Virus record (IMG/VR): IMGVR_UViG_3300022169_000034
Span: 1-23,064 of that record
DNA: 23,064 nt
Direction: 5' to 3' (one strand)
DNA from: a virus
Shown one piece after another: positions 13,131 through 20,481 of this stretch. Position 1 is the first letter of the stretch. The number at the start of each line of letters is the position of its first letter. A program made the translations under genes and the position numbers. The notes below the pieces were generated by a model. That model saw nothing but the letters and a program-made list of their open reading frames with translations, had not been told where the DNA came from and made no database searches.

Positions 13131-16100
13131 ATGAAAGTAAAAAGAAGTTTTATTGCAGGTAGAATGAACAAGAGTTTCGATGAGAGACTTGTTCCAAAAG
13201 GTGAGTACATAGATGCTATGAACATTCGTTTAGGCTCTACCGAAGAAAGCGAGATAGGTGCTATAGAAAACACTAAGGGTAATGAGAAGCTAACTAGCTT
13301 AATATCTCCTAGAGGAATCTACGGTGGTTATCTAGACAACCTTCCTCTGTCTGCTGATGCTGTTTGTTTAGGTTCTGTAGAGGATTCAAAGAACGAAACT
13401 ATATATTGGTTTGTTCATGACCCTAGTAATCCGTCTTCTCCTTTAACGGGGAAGTTGGACATGATAGTATCATATGATGTTGTTAATGAAACATTGGTGT
13501 ATCACGTAGTGAGTTACAATGATGGAGATGGTGTAAACACTGCTTTAAATTTGAACCCAACATACCTTGTTAATGGGATAGATTTAATTGATAATCTTTT
13601 ATTCTTCACTGATAATTATAATCCACCTAGAAGGATCAACGTTGATTCAACATATATAGATCCGATACCAGAAGCTCTTAACGTTATTGTTAAGCCACCT
13701 TCAGAATCTCCAGGGGTAGTACTTGTAAATTTACCAGGACAGGAAAATTATTTAGACACAAGATTCTTAGCTTTCGCATACAGGTATAAGTATTTAGATG
13801 GAGAGTATTCGGCACTTTCTCAGTTCTCTGAGATAGCGTTCTTGCCTAAACCTTTTTCTTTAAGCCCTGAAACCTTTGATAATGAAGGTATGACTAACCA
13901 GTACAATAGCGCACAGGTTACATTTAACACAGGGACATCTAGGGTTGTTGGCATAGACTTAGTATTTAAGTTTGCTAATGGTACTATACTTAACGTTGTT
14001 GAAAAATATATAAAAGAAGATGAGGGGTGGATAGATAACACTAACGTTACCACTACATTCACAAACAGAAAGGTTTACACAACATTAACAACGTCAGAGC
14101 TTTTAAGACTTTTTGATAATGTCCCTCACAAAGCTCAAGCCCAAACTATAATGAGTAACAGGCTTATGTATGGAAACTATATTGATGGATATAACTTAAC
14201 AGATAGCTTAGGTGAGGATTGTTTACTTAATTATAATACAGAGCTTGTTTCTACTCCAGTAGACCAATCTGATGTAAGTAAATCTCTTTCAAACACAACA
14301 TATGATATAGATCCATCTTCAACAGAGATAATACCTAATTCAACATTGTCTATAGATATGTCTGATTTTTCTTCAGAATTAAATGATGGAGGATTATTAT
14401 CTATAACACTAAGGCTATCCAGTTACAAATTCTCTGGAACAGGCACTCTACCTACAGATACTCAAGCTCCTCTTACTATAACTATTATTTTTAATTTGCA
14501 AGAAAATTATTCATCTGTTTATGACATGGTTTCTAGCACACTTTTTCTTCAGTCGATAGGACAATTTACATTTACACCCATAACTGATTGCGGTACAGAC
14601 TCGGCTGGAACATCTCTTACAGATAGATTCAATTGCCAATTAACAGATTTATACTTACCATCTCCAGGGTATGATTTTAATAATAGTGGTATTACAGGCA
14701 TAAACCAAGGGATTAGAATTGTTGCTACTCCTGAAAGTGATATTTTTAATTTAAGTATGTTGTCTGCTAGATATGAAGTGGTAGGAACTCCTGGTGCTTA
14801 TATTTATGAGTATTTTGAAATATTATCTAGTTCTGTAACATTCTCAAAATCTGGTATAGTGAAAAGCCTTCATAGCGATAGGGATTTTGAGGTGGGTATT
14901 GTTTATATGGATGAATATAATAGGTCTACAACTGCTTTAGTTAGTTCCAACAATACGATATTTGTTCCACCATCTGGATCAACTCAAAAGAATATTATTA
15001 GAACTACAATACCAACAACACAAAAACCTCCATATTGGGCTGCTAGATATAAGTTTGTAGTTAAGCCATCATCTATAGATTATGAGACTATATACTCAAA
15101 CATTTTCTTTACTGATCCATTAGACAATATAACTTATTTTCTTTTAGAAGGAGATAATCAAATAAAGGCTGTTGAAGGTCAAAGACTAAGAGTTAAGAAA
15201 GATGTTGGTGGGCCTTTATCTTCTAGAGTAGAAACAGTTATACTAGATATATCAGCAAAGAGTAGAAACTTTTTGTCAGATGAAGATGAAGATGAAGATA
15301 TAATTGAACCTTCAGGACTTTACATGTCTCTAAAAGCTAACAATTTTAATCTTAATACTCAAGGTTTAGCCTATTTAACAAGTGGGAGGAGAGATCAATT
15401 ACATAGGTTATTATATCCAGTTTACTCTAATAATTTAAATTATGATGATGCATTACCTATAAGTCCTACAAACGTACCTTACAAAGCGTGGGAGATACCT
15501 AGTGGGAGTTTAGTTACAATTTCTTTTACAATGGCTGCTAAGTCTCTAGAGGATCCTGATTATGGGGAAACTACATATACTTTTGAAAAAACATTTACAG
15601 CTTCTATTGACTATGATAATATGTACAACTTCATAGTTGGCGATAACATAGTTTTAAATAATGGTGCTCTTACTTCAACAGAATTAGAGCCAGATGTATA
15701 TCAGTTTGATAATCTTTACGACTTTACCACAGAAACAGGGGGCGAGGATTACATTACTTTTGGAACTGTATTTCCTGGTATAGAGTCTGAATCTTTCAGA
15801 GTACAACTTTTATGGAGAAATCCGTTAGAGGCGACAGCAGATGATGACTTGGCAGGACAAATGTATTTTGGTTTAAGGAATTTAAATGACAGTCCAACAT
15901 ATCCTGGAACAATTGTTAGTTGTGAAATAATAGTTGTTTCAGGTGGTAATAATATTGTTTTTGAGACACTCCCAATAGACTCTGATTCAGACATATACTA
16001 TGAGGGTAGTGATAGCTACCCAATAACGGGCGGCTTCCATACTGGTAATGTCCAGACACAGACTGCTGTCCTTCCAGCAATAGTTGACCTATCATTCTTC

Positions 16101-17855
16101 AACTGCTTTACATTTGGTAATGGGGTTGAGAGTTATAAAATAAGAGATAGATTATCTACACCTAAATTCAGACTAGGAGAGAGAGTCACGGCTGTTTCTC
16201 AGGAGGACTATAAAGAGGCTCACCGATTTGCAGACATCACATATAGTGGTATATACAATGAGGACACAAATATAAATAAACTGAACGAGTTCAACTTAGC
16301 CCTTGCTAACTTTAAGACTTTAGAAAAAACTTTCGGGCCTATAAGACTTATGTCTGGTAGAGCTGGAGATATACTCACATTACAAGAGGATAAGGTGTCT
16401 TATGTGATGGCAGGTAAAGATTTATTGACTGATGCGTCAGGTGGAGGTGTTCTAACTTCAGTGCCATTGGTATTAGGTCAAGCCATAGTCAGAATAGAAA
16501 ACTACGGAATAAGCAACAACCCTGAAAGCTATACAGAGTGGGGATTCGATAAATTCTTTACGGACTCTAAAAGGGGTGCTGTAATAAAACTATCTGGCTC
16601 AGGCAGGCAAGAGGAGCTTAGTGTTGTGTCTAAATCAGGGATGAGAGGATGGTTTAGGGATTACTTTAATCTTACACCTAACACACAAAAGATAGGCGGT
16701 TATGACCCTTACATGGGTGAGTATGTTCTTTCAGGGAACTTAAATGCATTACCTGTTGACCCTGTCTCAGTTCAATGTGGTACAACTCAAACTGTGACAA
16801 TGTCAGAAAGCCTTAGAACTTGGGAGATAGTATTCCCTCCGTCTGCTGGAGAAGTTACCGTTAATTATGTGGTTGGGGTATTACCTATTGGTGAGGACAT
16901 GGTGTTTGAAGTTACATATAATGGAGTCACCTATAGTTCTGGGCCTGTTACTAGTAGCGGATCATTCACATTCTCTAAGGACTCTATTTTTAACAATACA
17001 GCTACAGTTGAGGTCACGCTATCAAGCGATTATGAAACAACATATAGTGTTGAAGTTAGCTGTCCAGTGTCAAATCAATTACAGGTTACACAGGTAGGTC
17101 TTAATAGCGATGATGTATCTGGTCAGTTTATACATAATCAATTCTATTGGACTCAAGGTTCTTATGTTAGTCCTACAAGAAGCGATATGGTTATGTTGCT
17201 TTCTAGTGATGACACAATAAATGTATCTCAGTTTAGTTCTATATCTGGAGATGAAGGATCAGGATCTATACCATCATCTATTGGAGACCCGACAACAATA
17301 AGAATACAGTCAGCTAAGATAGGATCAGATGATTTTGTATTTAATCCTGCTATTCATAAGCTAAAGTATTTCTTATCTAGCACTGAGTTTCAGAACAACC
17401 CTAGTAGTATTCAGTCATTACTTACTCAGTCTACTGACTTAACACCGATATTGAACCCACAAGCAGGTGTATATTATTATGATATACCTTACTCTCAAAC
17501 ATTAGTGTTTAGTCCTTACTTGTATTTAATATACGACTATCAGAACATTGAGTCTGAAGTATTGTGTTACTCAAACACATCAGCTCTAGAGGCTTGTTGT
17601 TCTTGCGTTACTTGTGCAGGCAACACACCATATAATAGTTCTCTAACGCCTCAAGTAGATTCTACTACGGCTTGCGGTCAGACGCTTACAGAGACGTTCT
17701 ATCATAGTGGATCTGATGTTTGCCCAAGCACAGGGGATAATGTGTATCAAGAGAGTACAATGACAACTCCTTTATCTACAGGGTATTACAAGACAAGCTG
17801 TGGATGGATTGAGGTAACTCCTGCTGGAGTAGTAAATAATGAAGGAACTTGTTAA
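13131..17855 (+). CDS. Very large tail stabilization (muzzle / tubular B-like) protein
   Basis: At 1574 residues this is the largest gene here. The N-terminus (FIAGRMNKSFDERL at 7-20, GEYIDAMNIRLGS at 24-36, AIENTKGN at 44-51) is the signature I recall from stabilization proteins of crAss-like and marine phages, equivalent to T7 gp12 or P22 gp10, which form the tail nozzle. The body is all-beta and probably propeller-like. An acidic run sits at 717-723, encoded by three GATGAA repeats (15279-15296). A beta-sandwich-like segment at 1214-1311 and a Cys-rich end (nine Cys in 1478-1574) resemble parts of the next protein. Sampled 60-base blocks between about 14340 and 15480 are poorer in G+C (27-38%) than blocks at either end (up to 45-48%), hinting at a variable middle. 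Confidence 0.82.
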   Translation: MKVKRSFIAGRMNKSFDERLVPKGEYIDAMNIRLGSTEESEIGAIENTKGNEKLTSLISPRGIYGGYLDNLPLSADAVCLGSVEDSKNETIYWFVHDPSNPSSPLTGKLDMIVSYDVVNETLVYHVVSYNDGDGVNTALNLNPTYLVNGIDLIDNLLFFTDNYNPPRRINVDSTYIDPIPEALNVIVKPPSESPGVVLVNLPGQENYLDTRFLAFAYRYKYLDGEYSALSQFSEIAFLPKPFSLSPETFDNEGMTNQYNSAQVTFNTGTSRVVGIDLVFKFANGTILNVVEKYIKEDEGWIDNTNVTTTFTNRKVYTTLTTSELLRLFDNVPHKAQAQTIMSNRLMYGNYIDGYNLTDSLGEDCLLNYNTELVSTPVDQSDVSKSLSNTTYDIDPSSTEIIPNSTLSIDMSDFSSELNDGGLLSITLRLSSYKFSGTGTLPTDTQAPLTITIIFNLQENYSSVYDMVSSTLFLQSIGQFTFTPITDCGTDSAGTSLTDRFNCQLTDLYLPSPGYDFNNSGITGINQGIRIVATPESDIFNLSMLSARYEVVGTPGAYIYEYFEILSSSVTFSKSGIVKSLHSDRDFEVGIVYMDEYNRSTTALVSSNNTIFVPPSGSTQKNIIRTTIPTTQKPPYWAARYKFVVKPSSIDYETIYSNIFFTDPLDNITYFLLEGDNQIKAVEGQRLRVKKDVGGPLSSRVETVILDISAKSRNFLSDEDEDEDIIEPSGLYMSLKANNFNLNTQGLAYLTSGRRDQLHRLLYPVYSNNLNYDDALPISPTNVPYKAWEIPSGSLVTISFTMAAKSLEDPDYGETTYTFEKTFTASIDYDNMYNFIVGDNIVLNNGALTSTELEPDVYQFDNLYDFTTETGGEDYITFGTVFPGIESESFRVQLLWRNPLEATADDDLAGQMYFGLRNLNDSPTYPGTIVSCEIIVVSGGNNIVFETLPIDSDSDIYYEGSDSYPITGGFHTGNVQTQTAVLPAIVDLSFFNCFTFGNGVESYKIRDRLSTPKFRLGERVTAVSQEDYKEAHRFADITYSGIYNEDTNINKLNEFNLALANFKTLEKTFGPIRLMSGRAGDILTLQEDKVSYVMAGKDLLTDASGGGVLTSVPLVLGQAIVRIENYGISNNPESYTEWGFDKFFTDSKRGAVIKLSGSGRQEELSVVSKSGMRGWFRDYFNLTPNTQKIGGYDPYMGEYVLSGNLNALPVDPVSVQCGTTQTVTMSESLRTWEIVFPPSAGEVTVNYVVGVLPIGEDMVFEVTYNGVTYSSGPVTSSGSFTFSKDSIFNNTATVEVTLSSDYETTYSVEVSCPVSNQLQVTQVGLNSDDVSGQFIHNQFYWTQGSYVSPTRSDMVMLLSSDDTINVSQFSSISGDEGSGSIPSSIGDPTTIRIQSAKIGSDDFVFNPAIHKLKYFLSSTEFQNNPSSIQSLLTQSTDLTPILNPQAGVYYYDIPYSQTLVFSPYLYLIYDYQNIESEVLCYSNTSALEACCSCVTCAGNTPYNSSLTPQVDSTTACGQTLTETFYHSGSDVCPSTGDNVYQESTMTTPLSTGYYKTSCGWIEVTPAGVVNNEGTC
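17742..17852 (+). repeat. Cys-ended YTD/DGW module, copy 1 (end of stabilization protein)
   Basis: Residues 1538-1574 of the stabilization protein contain VYQESTMTTPLSTGYYKTSC and end GVVNNEGTC. The order acidic/polar turn, TT, (D/T)G(W/Y), aromatic-hydrophobic strand, GV(V/L/I), then Cys recurs twice in the next protein (17931-18038 and 18678-18800). The similarity is at protein level only. Confidence 0.65.
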
Positions 17856-17870
17856 TAAAATAAATATATA

Positions 17871-19202
17871 ATGGCAGTATCGTTTGGAACATATTATATG
17901 AACAGTAACAGCTTCAGCACTACTAGTGGATTGTGGACTGATGATGGTTTAACCACTGTAGCTCCTGACGGTTGGTATCAAAGCTGTGGGGTTTACAGAG
18001 AAATGACTGGAGGAGTTTTAAACGAGTCTGTCACCTGCCCTAGCTGTGTTGCTGATTGTGGAGATATTGTGACGTTATCTTCTACACAAGGGGTTTACAA
18101 TGTAGAGGCTAATGTCGGGACTAACACGGGTGCTATATTAGTTAAGTTCAATCCTCAAACTGTAGGAGATGGCATACTTGTAACATACAATGGAGCCACA
18201 TATAATAAGTTAAGTTCTCCAGTTGATGGTGTTCATCAATCAAACACATTAGGTAACACTACTTATATTGGCGATTCAGGGACTGCCTGTGCAGCCTTAA
18301 CAGCCTTACCTTCAAGTACGGCTGGAGTTAGCGACTTCACATATAGAGCTGGATCATTTAATTCTGATGGAACAACAAGCACAGTTGATATAGTCGTTGG
18401 AGATGTTAGCCTATCTACAGGAAGCCCAGGCGAGTGCGTTATGGTTATACCAAAACCACTAGGGACTCCATCAAGTATAGACCTACAGATAACTAGCATA
18501 TGTAGCACGGGTGATTTTGATGTCACTGTTGAATGCCCAGAATTTCTTTTCGCATTCCCTGCATGCACTGGCCCTTTTGGTAATCAGACACAAGCTTGTG
18601 CTTGTCATGTTTACGACTCTACATATTATCACGCACCAGTAACGGGGACTATTGGATCCCCTGGTCTTTATGATTACGTGTTTACTGACACTACTGGTCA
18701 GACACCTGTGGCTGATGGTTGGCATAAGTTGTATGATGGCACACCTGAGGGGAAAGTATTTAGAGTTCTTGATGGTGTTATTACAAGTATTTCATCTTGT
18801 CCTTCAGGTTCATCAGTTTGGGAAGTAGAAAGATGTAGAGCTGATGGTGTTTCTGAAACCATAATAGCAAGCTGGACTGGCCCAACATTAACTGTTGGAA
18901 CTAAGGTGTTCTTAACTGGAGAGCCTGGATGCTTGTTCGATGTTCTAGGGACATCCTTAGGTGTTGCGACAGATGTTATAAGTGCAACATCCACATTAAC
19001 TTGTGCCGACTTCTGTAGTACTTACTTAGTTACAAATATAGACACAACTAATATACTTACTCTTGAGTACGTGAGTTGCAGTGGTGTTAACACATCCATA
19101 TCTCTAACCCCAGGAGGCTCATCTAATGTGTGTCTAAGATCAATAATAACACAACCTGCAAACATAACAGTCGGATGGCTAAGTTGTGGTTGTACAATAT
19201 AA
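17871..19202 (+). CDS. Cys-rich modular virion surface protein
   Basis: This 443-residue protein contains 20 cysteines and is otherwise rich in T, S, G, V and D, as expected for exposed beta modules. Residues 21-56 (LWTDDGLTTVAPDGWYQSCG...) and 270-310 (VFTDTTGQTPVADGWHK...) repeat the module at the end of the stabilization protein. Residues 61-223 look like a beta-sandwich with VTYNGATY, comparable to VTYNGVTY in the stabilization protein. The C-terminal part has a third motif type (DTTNILTLEYVSCSGVNTSI, ending LSCGCTI) that I recall from many flavobacterial and flavophage surface proteins. No signal peptide is visible. It lies 15 bases after the stabilization gene. A tail-tip adhesin or decoration is the best inference; no enzyme motif is seen. 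Confidence 0.65.
   Translation: MAVSFGTYYMNSNSFSTTSGLWTDDGLTTVAPDGWYQSCGVYREMTGGVLNESVTCPSCVADCGDIVTLSSTQGVYNVEANVGTNTGAILVKFNPQTVGDGILVTYNGATYNKLSSPVDGVHQSNTLGNTTYIGDSGTACAALTALPSSTAGVSDFTYRAGSFNSDGTTSTVDIVVGDVSLSTGSPGECVMVIPKPLGTPSSIDLQITSICSTGDFDVTVECPEFLFAFPACTGPFGNQTQACACHVYDSTYYHAPVTGTIGSPGLYDYVFTDTTGQTPVADGWHKLYDGTPEGKVFRVLDGVITSISSCPSGSSVWEVERCRADGVSETIIASWTGPTLTVGTKVFLTGEPGCLFDVLGTSLGVATDVISATSTLTCADFCSTYLVTNIDTTNILTLEYVSCSGVNTSISLTPGGSSNVCLRSIITQPANITVGWLSCGCTI
17931..18038 (+). repeat. Cys-ended YTD/DGW module, copy 2
   Basis: Residues 21-56 of the 443-aa protein: LWTDDGLTTVAPDGWYQSCG, then a YRE strand, GVL and a Cys. It is the cleanest copy and lines up with copy 1 with almost no gaps. 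Confidence 0.65.
18678..18800 (+). repeat. Cys-ended YTD/DGW module, copy 3
   Basis: Residues 270-310 of the 443-aa protein: VFTDTTGQTPVADGWHKLYD, then a VFRVLDGVI strand and SSC. It is a few residues longer than copies 1 and 2 in the middle loop. Confidence 0.6.
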
Positions 19203-19208
19203 AAATAT

Positions 19209-20048
19209 ATGTCTATACCTATATTACCAGCAGACACTAGCCCAATCAGACAAGCGTACACTTTAACATATAGTTCGTCTGTCGAGGGCTTCCCGTCTTT
19301 CTACTCATACATACCTGAGCAGATACAAGGCATGAACCAATACCTGTATACATTTAGTAATGCAGAGTTGTATGTTCATAACTCAAATAATACTGACAGG
19401 TGTACATTCTATGATGTATTCACCCCAATGTCTGTATGGAGTGTGTTTAATCCTGAGCCTACTATGACAAAGGTTTTTAAAACAATAGTGTTGGATTCTA
19501 ATGATAATTGGGGATTTGCAGCAAGAGCCGATCTTGAGTCTGGGAATATAGACTCAGAATATTTTGAACTAAAGGAGGGAGATTACTTTGCATTTATAAG
19601 AGGCATAGACAGTGTCCCAGTATTAGAGACCGAACTTCCTTTAAGATCTTCTCAAGGTGTGGGAGCTGTATCAACTGTAGATATAGCAGACCCAGCAAAT
19701 GTCATCCTTACTTACCCAGCGAATACATTGAGTAGTATGATAAGCATTGGAGACTTAATATACTTCCTCTCAGGAGGCGTGTACACATTGTGTGGTGTTA
19801 TAACATCAATAAGCAAAAAAGTTCTTACAGCAGGTGTAGAAACAAGTCGTCTAACTATAGACACAACAACTGGTCTTGGTGGTAGTACAGCAGTAGTTGC
19901 AACCGACTATACATTCTTTATTAAGAACGCTATAGCGGAATCTCATGGACTAAGAGGTTACTACATGGACTTTATAATAGAGAACGATAATACTGATAAG
20001 GTAGAGATATTTGTTGTGGAGAGCGATATATTTAAAAGTTATCCATAA
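19209..20048 (+). CDS. Conserved virion protein (tail/neck associated)
   Basis: This 279-residue protein has a conserved-looking N-terminal half: FPSFYSYIPEQIQGMNQYLY at 28-47, then TFSNAELYVHN, a Pro/aromatic stretch VFNPEPTMTKVFKTI, and EYFELKEGDYFAFIRG. Residues about 148-241 look like a separate beta domain (SIGDLIYFLSGG, then an ITSISKK turn) comparable to inserts in the capsid and 321-aa proteins. The end (LRGYYMDFIIENDN to VVESDIFKSYP) is a motif I recall closing tail-associated proteins in crAss-like and marine phages. It starts six bases after the previous stop and is followed by a promoter element, so it may be the last gene of the tail transcript. Its place in the virion is not known to me. 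Confidence 0.7.
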   Translation: MSIPILPADTSPIRQAYTLTYSSSVEGFPSFYSYIPEQIQGMNQYLYTFSNAELYVHNSNNTDRCTFYDVFTPMSVWSVFNPEPTMTKVFKTIVLDSNDNWGFAARADLESGNIDSEYFELKEGDYFAFIRGIDSVPVLETELPLRSSQGVGAVSTVDIADPANVILTYPANTLSSMISIGDLIYFLSGGVYTLCGVITSISKKVLTAGVETSRLTIDTTTGLGGSTAVVATDYTFFIKNAIAESHGLRGYYMDFIIENDNTDKVEIFVVESDIFKSYP

Positions 20049-20055
20049 TTTTCAT

Positions 20056-20063
20056 TATCTTTG
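20056..20063 (+). promoter_or_regulatory. Bacteroidota-type -7 promoter element (TATCTTTG), nearly leaderless
   Basis: TATCTTTG matches TAnnTTTG and is the same octamer as at 11212. It lies in the 22-base gap after the 279-aa gene and only seven bases before the GTG at 20071. With transcription starting about seven bases downstream of the -7 element, the message would begin at or next to the start codon. No convincing -33 TTG is present at normal spacing. Confidence 0.55.
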
Positions 20064-20070
20064 CAGTATA

Positions 20071-20481
20071 GTGAGTCTTCAAATTAGAAAATTAAATTCA
20101 GTAGATTATGATACTATCCTCACCAAATGGTGGAAGGACTGGAGGTGGACAGCACCATCGAAGGAGTTATTACCAGATAATGGGGAGGGCGGTTTTATTG
20201 TTTATGATGGCGATGTTCCAGTGTGTGCTGGTTTTATATACAACACTAATTCTGGTATTGCTTGGTGTGAGTTTGTGGTTTCTAATTTTGATTACAAAGA
20301 TAAAAAAAAGAAAAAGGAGTGCCTACAATTACTCATATCTTCGATATCTAATATGGCAAAGTCGATGGGTAAAAAGTTTATGTATTCTCTTTTAAAAAGC
20401 AAAACACTTATAGATATATATGAGGAAGATGGTTATGTAGCTAATCCTCAAAGTTTAACAGAAATGATAAAAATAATATAA
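20071..20481 (+). CDS. GNAT-like acetyltransferase domain protein
   Basis: I choose the GTG at 20071, giving 136 residues, because the only upstream ATG in frame (20011) would lie inside the preceding gene. The protein has a short GNAT-like layout: an N-terminal strand (LQIRKLNSVDYD), a helix, a strand pair (GGFIVYDGDVPVCAGFIY and GIAWCEFVVSNFD), a long helix (CLQLLISSISNMAKSMGKKF) and a late strand/helix. In place of the usual R/Q-x-x-G-x-G/A acetyl-CoA loop is a lysine cluster (KDKKKKKE, residues 76-83), so acetyl-CoA binding is doubtful. GNAT-like proteins in phages may acetylate host or phage targets, but a structural role is also possible here among virion genes. It carries its own promoter element. 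Confidence 0.6.
   Translation: MSLQIRKLNSVDYDTILTKWWKDWRWTAPSKELLPDNGEGGFIVYDGDVPVCAGFIYNTNSGIAWCEFVVSNFDYKDKKKKKECLQLLISSISNMAKSMGKKFMYSLLKSKTLIDIYEEDGYVANPQSLTEMIKII

Follow-up and report, generated by a model that had tools for sequence, protein, structure and literature searches.

A crAss-type tail muzzle gene apparently split in two, with shared small modules between its parts

Two neighbouring viral genes that carry similar small modules at their adjoining ends raise the question of which structure they build and why the modules lie on both sides of a gene boundary. The window analyzed here is the whole 23,064-nucleotide stretch of IMG/VR record IMGVR_UViG_3300022169_000034 (positions 1 to 23,064). 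An initial annotation had read the two genes, P1 and P2, as a tail nozzle with exchangeable surface domains. It did not include a third gene, P3, in which the muzzle resumes. The features are located as follows.

13131-17855, + strand: P1, 1574 aa, putative first part of a crAss-type tail muzzle
13131-16733, + strand: P1 muzzle body, aa 1-1201, with gp44-like N-terminus and phrog_14478 similarity; the elemo phage match stops at aa 1201
14223-16010, + strand: block of P1 (aa 365-960) diverged from the near-identical contig L006, by codon differences
16758-17069, + strand: P1 beta-sandwich B', predicted PPC/collagen-binding-like fold (profile and model)
17070-17561, + strand: second beta domain of the P1 arm, from the model of aa 1195-1574 (mean pLDDT 82.0)
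17562-17606, + strand: Cys motif E, LCYSNTSALEACCSC, last piece of conserved P1
17682-17852, + strand: A2-type Cys-ended module at the P1 C-terminus (profiles; model confidence is low upstream of the module)
17871-19202, + strand: P2, 443 aa, cassette gene A1-B-A2-D-C in the slot between P1 and P3
17877-18038, + strand: P2 module A1 (module profiles)
18051-18542, + strand: P2 module B, beta-sandwich whose middle is longer than that of P1 B'
18609-18800, + strand: P2 module A2 (iterated profile)
18810-19022, + strand: P2 module D (module annotation)
19017-19199, + strand: P2 module C (module annotation)
19209-20048, + strand: P3, separate gene for the putative C-terminal part of the muzzle, with crAss_MUZ_C at aa 64-131

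P3 matches the Pfam family crAss_MUZ_C (PF25729) with an E-value of 8.3e-12, over the curated cut-off. The relatives of P1 comprise phrog_14478 and structural proteins of a Manatee Spring phage, Cellulophaga phages and Flavobacterium elemo phages. Profile alignments to gp44 of phiCrAss001 place the P1 core on residues 7-154 (E 7.9e-6, significant at the N-terminus only) and P3 on residues 1200-1284 (E 6.9e-13), and the P3 domain together with the P1 match bears out the nozzle identity proposed initially. Pfam crAss_MUZ had no match in P1, sequence searches of the PDB with P1, P2 and P3 returned nothing useful, and gp44 was absent from the matches of a PDB-wide search with the P3 profile though it is in the PDB. 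In the single chain of an elemo phage, the P1 core match runs to residue 1217 and the P3 match from 1237 to 1469. The elemo and gp44 matches therefore demonstrate a split of the muzzle relative to these two proteins, with P1 beyond about aa 1201 and the whole of P2 sitting in the split. On sequence evidence, P1 is a crAss-type tail muzzle whose C-terminal part is encoded by P3; since gp44 and the elemo protein are single chains, we infer that the split state is derived. The stretch between the two muzzle parts comprises an arm of two domains, Cys motif E and P2, the gene that carries the modules. In most relatives having A modules, the P1 core stops with motif E. Viruses with the P1-P2-P3 arrangement are a group related to phages of Bacteroidota bacteria. 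A terminator search over the three genes yielded 6 candidates, where shuffled sequence gave 4.1 on average, and 0 of them lie in the two intergenic gaps. A small gene at 20011-20481 overlaps the end of P3 and matches phrog_17252; the gene at the corresponding position of MW202828 is annotated as an N-terminal acetyltransferase complex subunit.

Cys-ended segments were found where the initial annotation had placed them, one at the end of P1 and two in P2, but the last one is longer than stated and extends over about 18609-18800. Pairwise alignment of the P1 tail with the first P2 copy scored 62 (shuffles 25.6 +/- 5.3; none of 5000 as high), and with the last P2 copy 53 (3 of 5000 as high). The two P2 copies, aligned with each other, scored 33 (shuffles 23.5 +/- 4.7; 221 of 5000 as high), which alone is unconvincing, so pairwise comparison with shuffled sequence holds for the P1 tail against either P2 copy and not between the P2 copies. 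A profile seeded with the P1 tail module only and iterated over the fetched relatives recovered the P2 modules with i-E 1e-16 and 6e-16, and at i-E 0.01 the final profile had 102 matches in real ORFs, one in reversed and none in shuffled sequences. Judged by these profiles, which show kinship better than pairwise alignment, the three segments are homologous members of one module family, A. The family has two types, A1 (first) and A2 (last), and the copy in the P1 tail fits A2 better (26.1 bits versus 17.5 for A1).

The beta-sandwich region that had been claimed for both proteins was recovered as well. Pairwise alignment of the P1 and P2 sandwiches scored 57 against shuffles of 34.3 +/- 6.0 (16 of 5000 as high), with the signal coming from the VTYNG stretch. 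Profile-profile comparison of P1 B' and P2 B gave E 6.7e-7 and a score of 41.9, reached by none of 200 column-shuffled controls (maximum 20.3). When 8 segment profiles were compared all against all (28 pairs), P1 B' with P2 B gave E 3.9e-6 and the two A profiles E 9e-4, while the remaining pairs had E of 0.077 or more, bar those of the P1-tail profile with A and with C; that profile blends A and C modules from different phages. AlphaFold models of P2 and of P1 aa 1195-1574 had mean pLDDT of 88.1 and 82.0, respectively. The models of both sandwiches retrieve the same solved folds and not different ones: P1 B' superposes on the collagen-binding domain 1nqj_A with Z 12.1 (93 residues, 2.2 A), and P2 B with Z 8.2 (90 residues, 2.4 A), which is barely above the level of common folds. 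P1 B' and P2 B are accordingly predicted to have one PPC/collagen-binding-like fold, for which the profiles and models speak more clearly than the pairwise comparison. Note that this fold is common to collagen-binding, CUB and SIDT domains and by itself says nothing on function. A Foldseek search with the entire P2 model had no match at E 0.001. P2 of the window had no match to known families in Pfam, PHROGs or NCBIfam, and 26 P2 proteins compared with Pfam at E 0.05 gave just two weak matches, each in a single member.

A survey of gene fusion and fission among relatives kept 80 of 107 IMG/VR relatives of P1, with additions of 10 loci found via P2 (two on contigs already included) and three named phages; survey loci carry L numbers. 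A total of 55 complete P1 genes were obtained, of which 54 were placed on a tree, L005 being identical to the window and left out. Among the 52 slots of known content, 38 hold an A-led gene, seven hold nothing and seven hold something else. Five of the 54 (L017, L027, L042, L074 and L078) lack a slot gene and have A modules fused to P1 itself. On this quick P1 tree, with some weak branches and with ORFs called mechanically on metagenome contigs, the fused or split state changed at least four times and the slot content (A-led gene, amidase, unrelated 144-aa protein or nothing) at least twelve times. The survey demonstrates that the genes fused and separated repeatedly and that the slot gene was replaced from one lineage to another; together with the shared A and B modules, these changes support the initial proposal of module sharing or shuffling across the P1/P2 boundary.

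The order A-B-A ends P1 in L027 and in L068/L069, is extended to A-B-A-C at the end of P1 in L074 and L078, forms a section of a longer array in L042 P1, and stands on its own slot gene in many other relatives. The P1 of L042 (2794 aa) is one fused muzzle tail with twelve A/B modules. L069 has A-B-A in P1 plus an amidase gene in the slot; this gene (L069:13871-14749), between P1 and P3, encodes peptidoglycan-binding and amidase parts. One supported clade (L009, L014, L016, L017, L082) mixes slot and tail types: an A gene that follows eight TSP1 repeats, the 144-aa protein, a fused A, and A-C. The end of the 144-aa protein resembles phrog_5194, as tested for L014. In L009 the phage muzzle protein ends in eight thrombospondin type 1 repeats (PF19028, E 4e-100).

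The distribution of A1 was followed with a degenerate DNA pattern of its core (DGFYSDG and the following R-E/Q-E/Q). The pattern misses the more diverged copy of the window and therefore samples only one A1 variety. At least 120 stretches were found in IMG/VR, of which 80 loci were taken, and one stretch in 84,980 prokaryote genomes. Among the A1 matches listed, 80 of 81 loci lie in an ORF and one outside any ORF; 72 of these 80 ORFs come directly after a P1 homologue, one is fused to P1, four are at contig edges and three are other cases. A begins within 7 residues of the start in 37 of 38 slot genes, and the A1 motif lies 26-45 residues from the gene start in 71 of 72 (among the matches listed). 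The number of residues that follow the last C.C in a chain mixes motif E with the ends of C modules, and E-ended chains were therefore taken from the module annotation. Of 53 relatives, 45 have both A modules and E, seven have neither and one has E alone; corrected for kinship, the association has three pairs for, none against and one tie (p 0.25, not significant). That E and A1 form a dedicated plug-and-socket joint, by which P2 would be docked and exchanged as a unit and the two-chain muzzle would fold around the arm, is a tentative idea that we hold possible while leaning against it. Seven loci (L097, L115, L118, L122, L128, L133, L157) have an extra gene of 80-81 aa before P2 with A1 and LCYS...CCxC, that is, A1 plus motif E. 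In L096 (CP070801.1, 8000 b), a phage region of P1 fragment, P2 and P3 is part of a MAG chromosome that carries the label Candidatus Aenigmatarchaeota; P1 there appears as short ORFs, and the assembly is possibly chimeric or error-rich.

The window and L006 are the sole near-identical but differing pair found. Inside about 14231-16030 they are 54-90% alike, and outside it 94-100% per 200 bases apart from the first, edge step (71%). Differing codons amount to 336 of 600 in aa 361-970 and 16 of 964 elsewhere, although L006 could be a chimeric assembly. The P2 of L006 is cut short at 252 aa and is nearly identical to that of the window over those 252 aa. L074 and L078 show 79-88% in the same region and 94-100% elsewhere. 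Judged by the order of parts, P1 aa 365-960 is probably the IG2/crass region. Because the diverged part is in P1 and the compared modules are steady, the modules are probably not the surface that changes fast. The emphasis placed initially on changing modules thus fits the exchange of slot content between lineages but not the near-identical pair, which keeps its compared modules (in P2, 252 aa).

We consider it rather probable that P1 and P3 constitute an opened crAss-type muzzle, the gap of which holds an arm and swappable surface modules for host contact. A single muzzle chain would have been opened at one point to give P1 and P3, and the gap would hold the arm (two beta domains and motif E) and the cassette of small modules on the P1 end and P2. 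In PMC10172136, the muzzle of gut crassvirus is a hexamer with a gate, the tail-tip gate resides in gp44, and the crass domain is the likely cell contact. A hexameric muzzle would display about six arms at the tail tip, and P2 may join near motif E via its N-terminal A1. The modules, which probably touch the host cell, would bind host-surface polymers and keep the tail in place, and the gate would open on a specific contact made by the IG2/crass region. With a gene of their own, the outer modules could change while the gate stays undisturbed.

An unlikely alternative takes the modules as spacers or tail decoration with weak binding to host glycans, specificity residing in other fibres and the crass region. 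The divergence of the near-identical pair at P1 aa 365-960 would suit it, as would the separate tail fibres of a human gut crassvirus (PMC10172136); however, the changes of module content between lineages are large and repeated. P2 could also act as a chaperone during assembly or cap the muzzle tip temporarily, with modules serving stability or protein-protein contacts. The conserved A1 at the P2 start adjoins the P1 end and the compared P2 part is almost constant between the window and L006, yet the slot can be lost or hold unrelated proteins (144-aa tip-like, amidase), which would be unusual for a required chaperone, and the same modules are covalent in P1 of five of 54 relatives and in L068/L069. 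We regard this role as distinctly improbable.

It is very improbable that read-through of the P1 stop or a frameshift yields part of P1 and P2 as one fusion, with two forms of the tail tip as the result. The P1 stop and P2 start of the window do share one frame with 15 bases between them, and relatives with fused genes exist. Nevertheless, the relative phases of P1 and P2 spread as 13, 9 and 12 (n=34), and as 24, 32 and 16 among the A1 matches listed (n=72); with all three phases used without preference, this mechanism was rejected.

If the opened-muzzle reading is true, crAss-related phages keep a constrained gate yet vary the display at the tail tip, the gene being opened at a single tolerated position and the modules placed on a gene of their own. 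Two candidate surfaces are thereby named, the modules and P1 aa 365-960. Descriptions of a split muzzle or of the modules were not found in the accessible parts of the literature searched, including PMC10172136, PMC12386605, PMC8776804 and PMC10136315. The BACON tandem repeats of crAssphage (PMC6949934) resemble the modules in being repeated domains of a crAss-like phage protein, but the domain differs. In phiCrAss001, gp44 (PF25731 and PF25729; PDB 7qok) resembles P1 at the N-terminus and P3 in its first part by profile, with the same order of parts, no sequence alignment being obtained for the middle of P1. It differs in having crAss_MUZ and crAss_MUZ_C in one chain, followed by gp45 with no module gene. 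The structural protein of a Flavobacterium elemo phage (MT497111, 1470 aa) has the P1 core (34% identity to the P1 part by profile alignment) and the P3 parts, but in a fused chain with 19 residues in place of arm and cassette and without E motif or modules. In Cellulophaga phage phi13:2 (Pachyviridae), the muzzle is likewise split over gp120 and gp121, both annotated as structural through similarity to phi8:3, with MUZ_C on the next gene; its P1 has the B module as in the window, but P2 is missing and P1 carries a cadherin-like/Big_9 domain.
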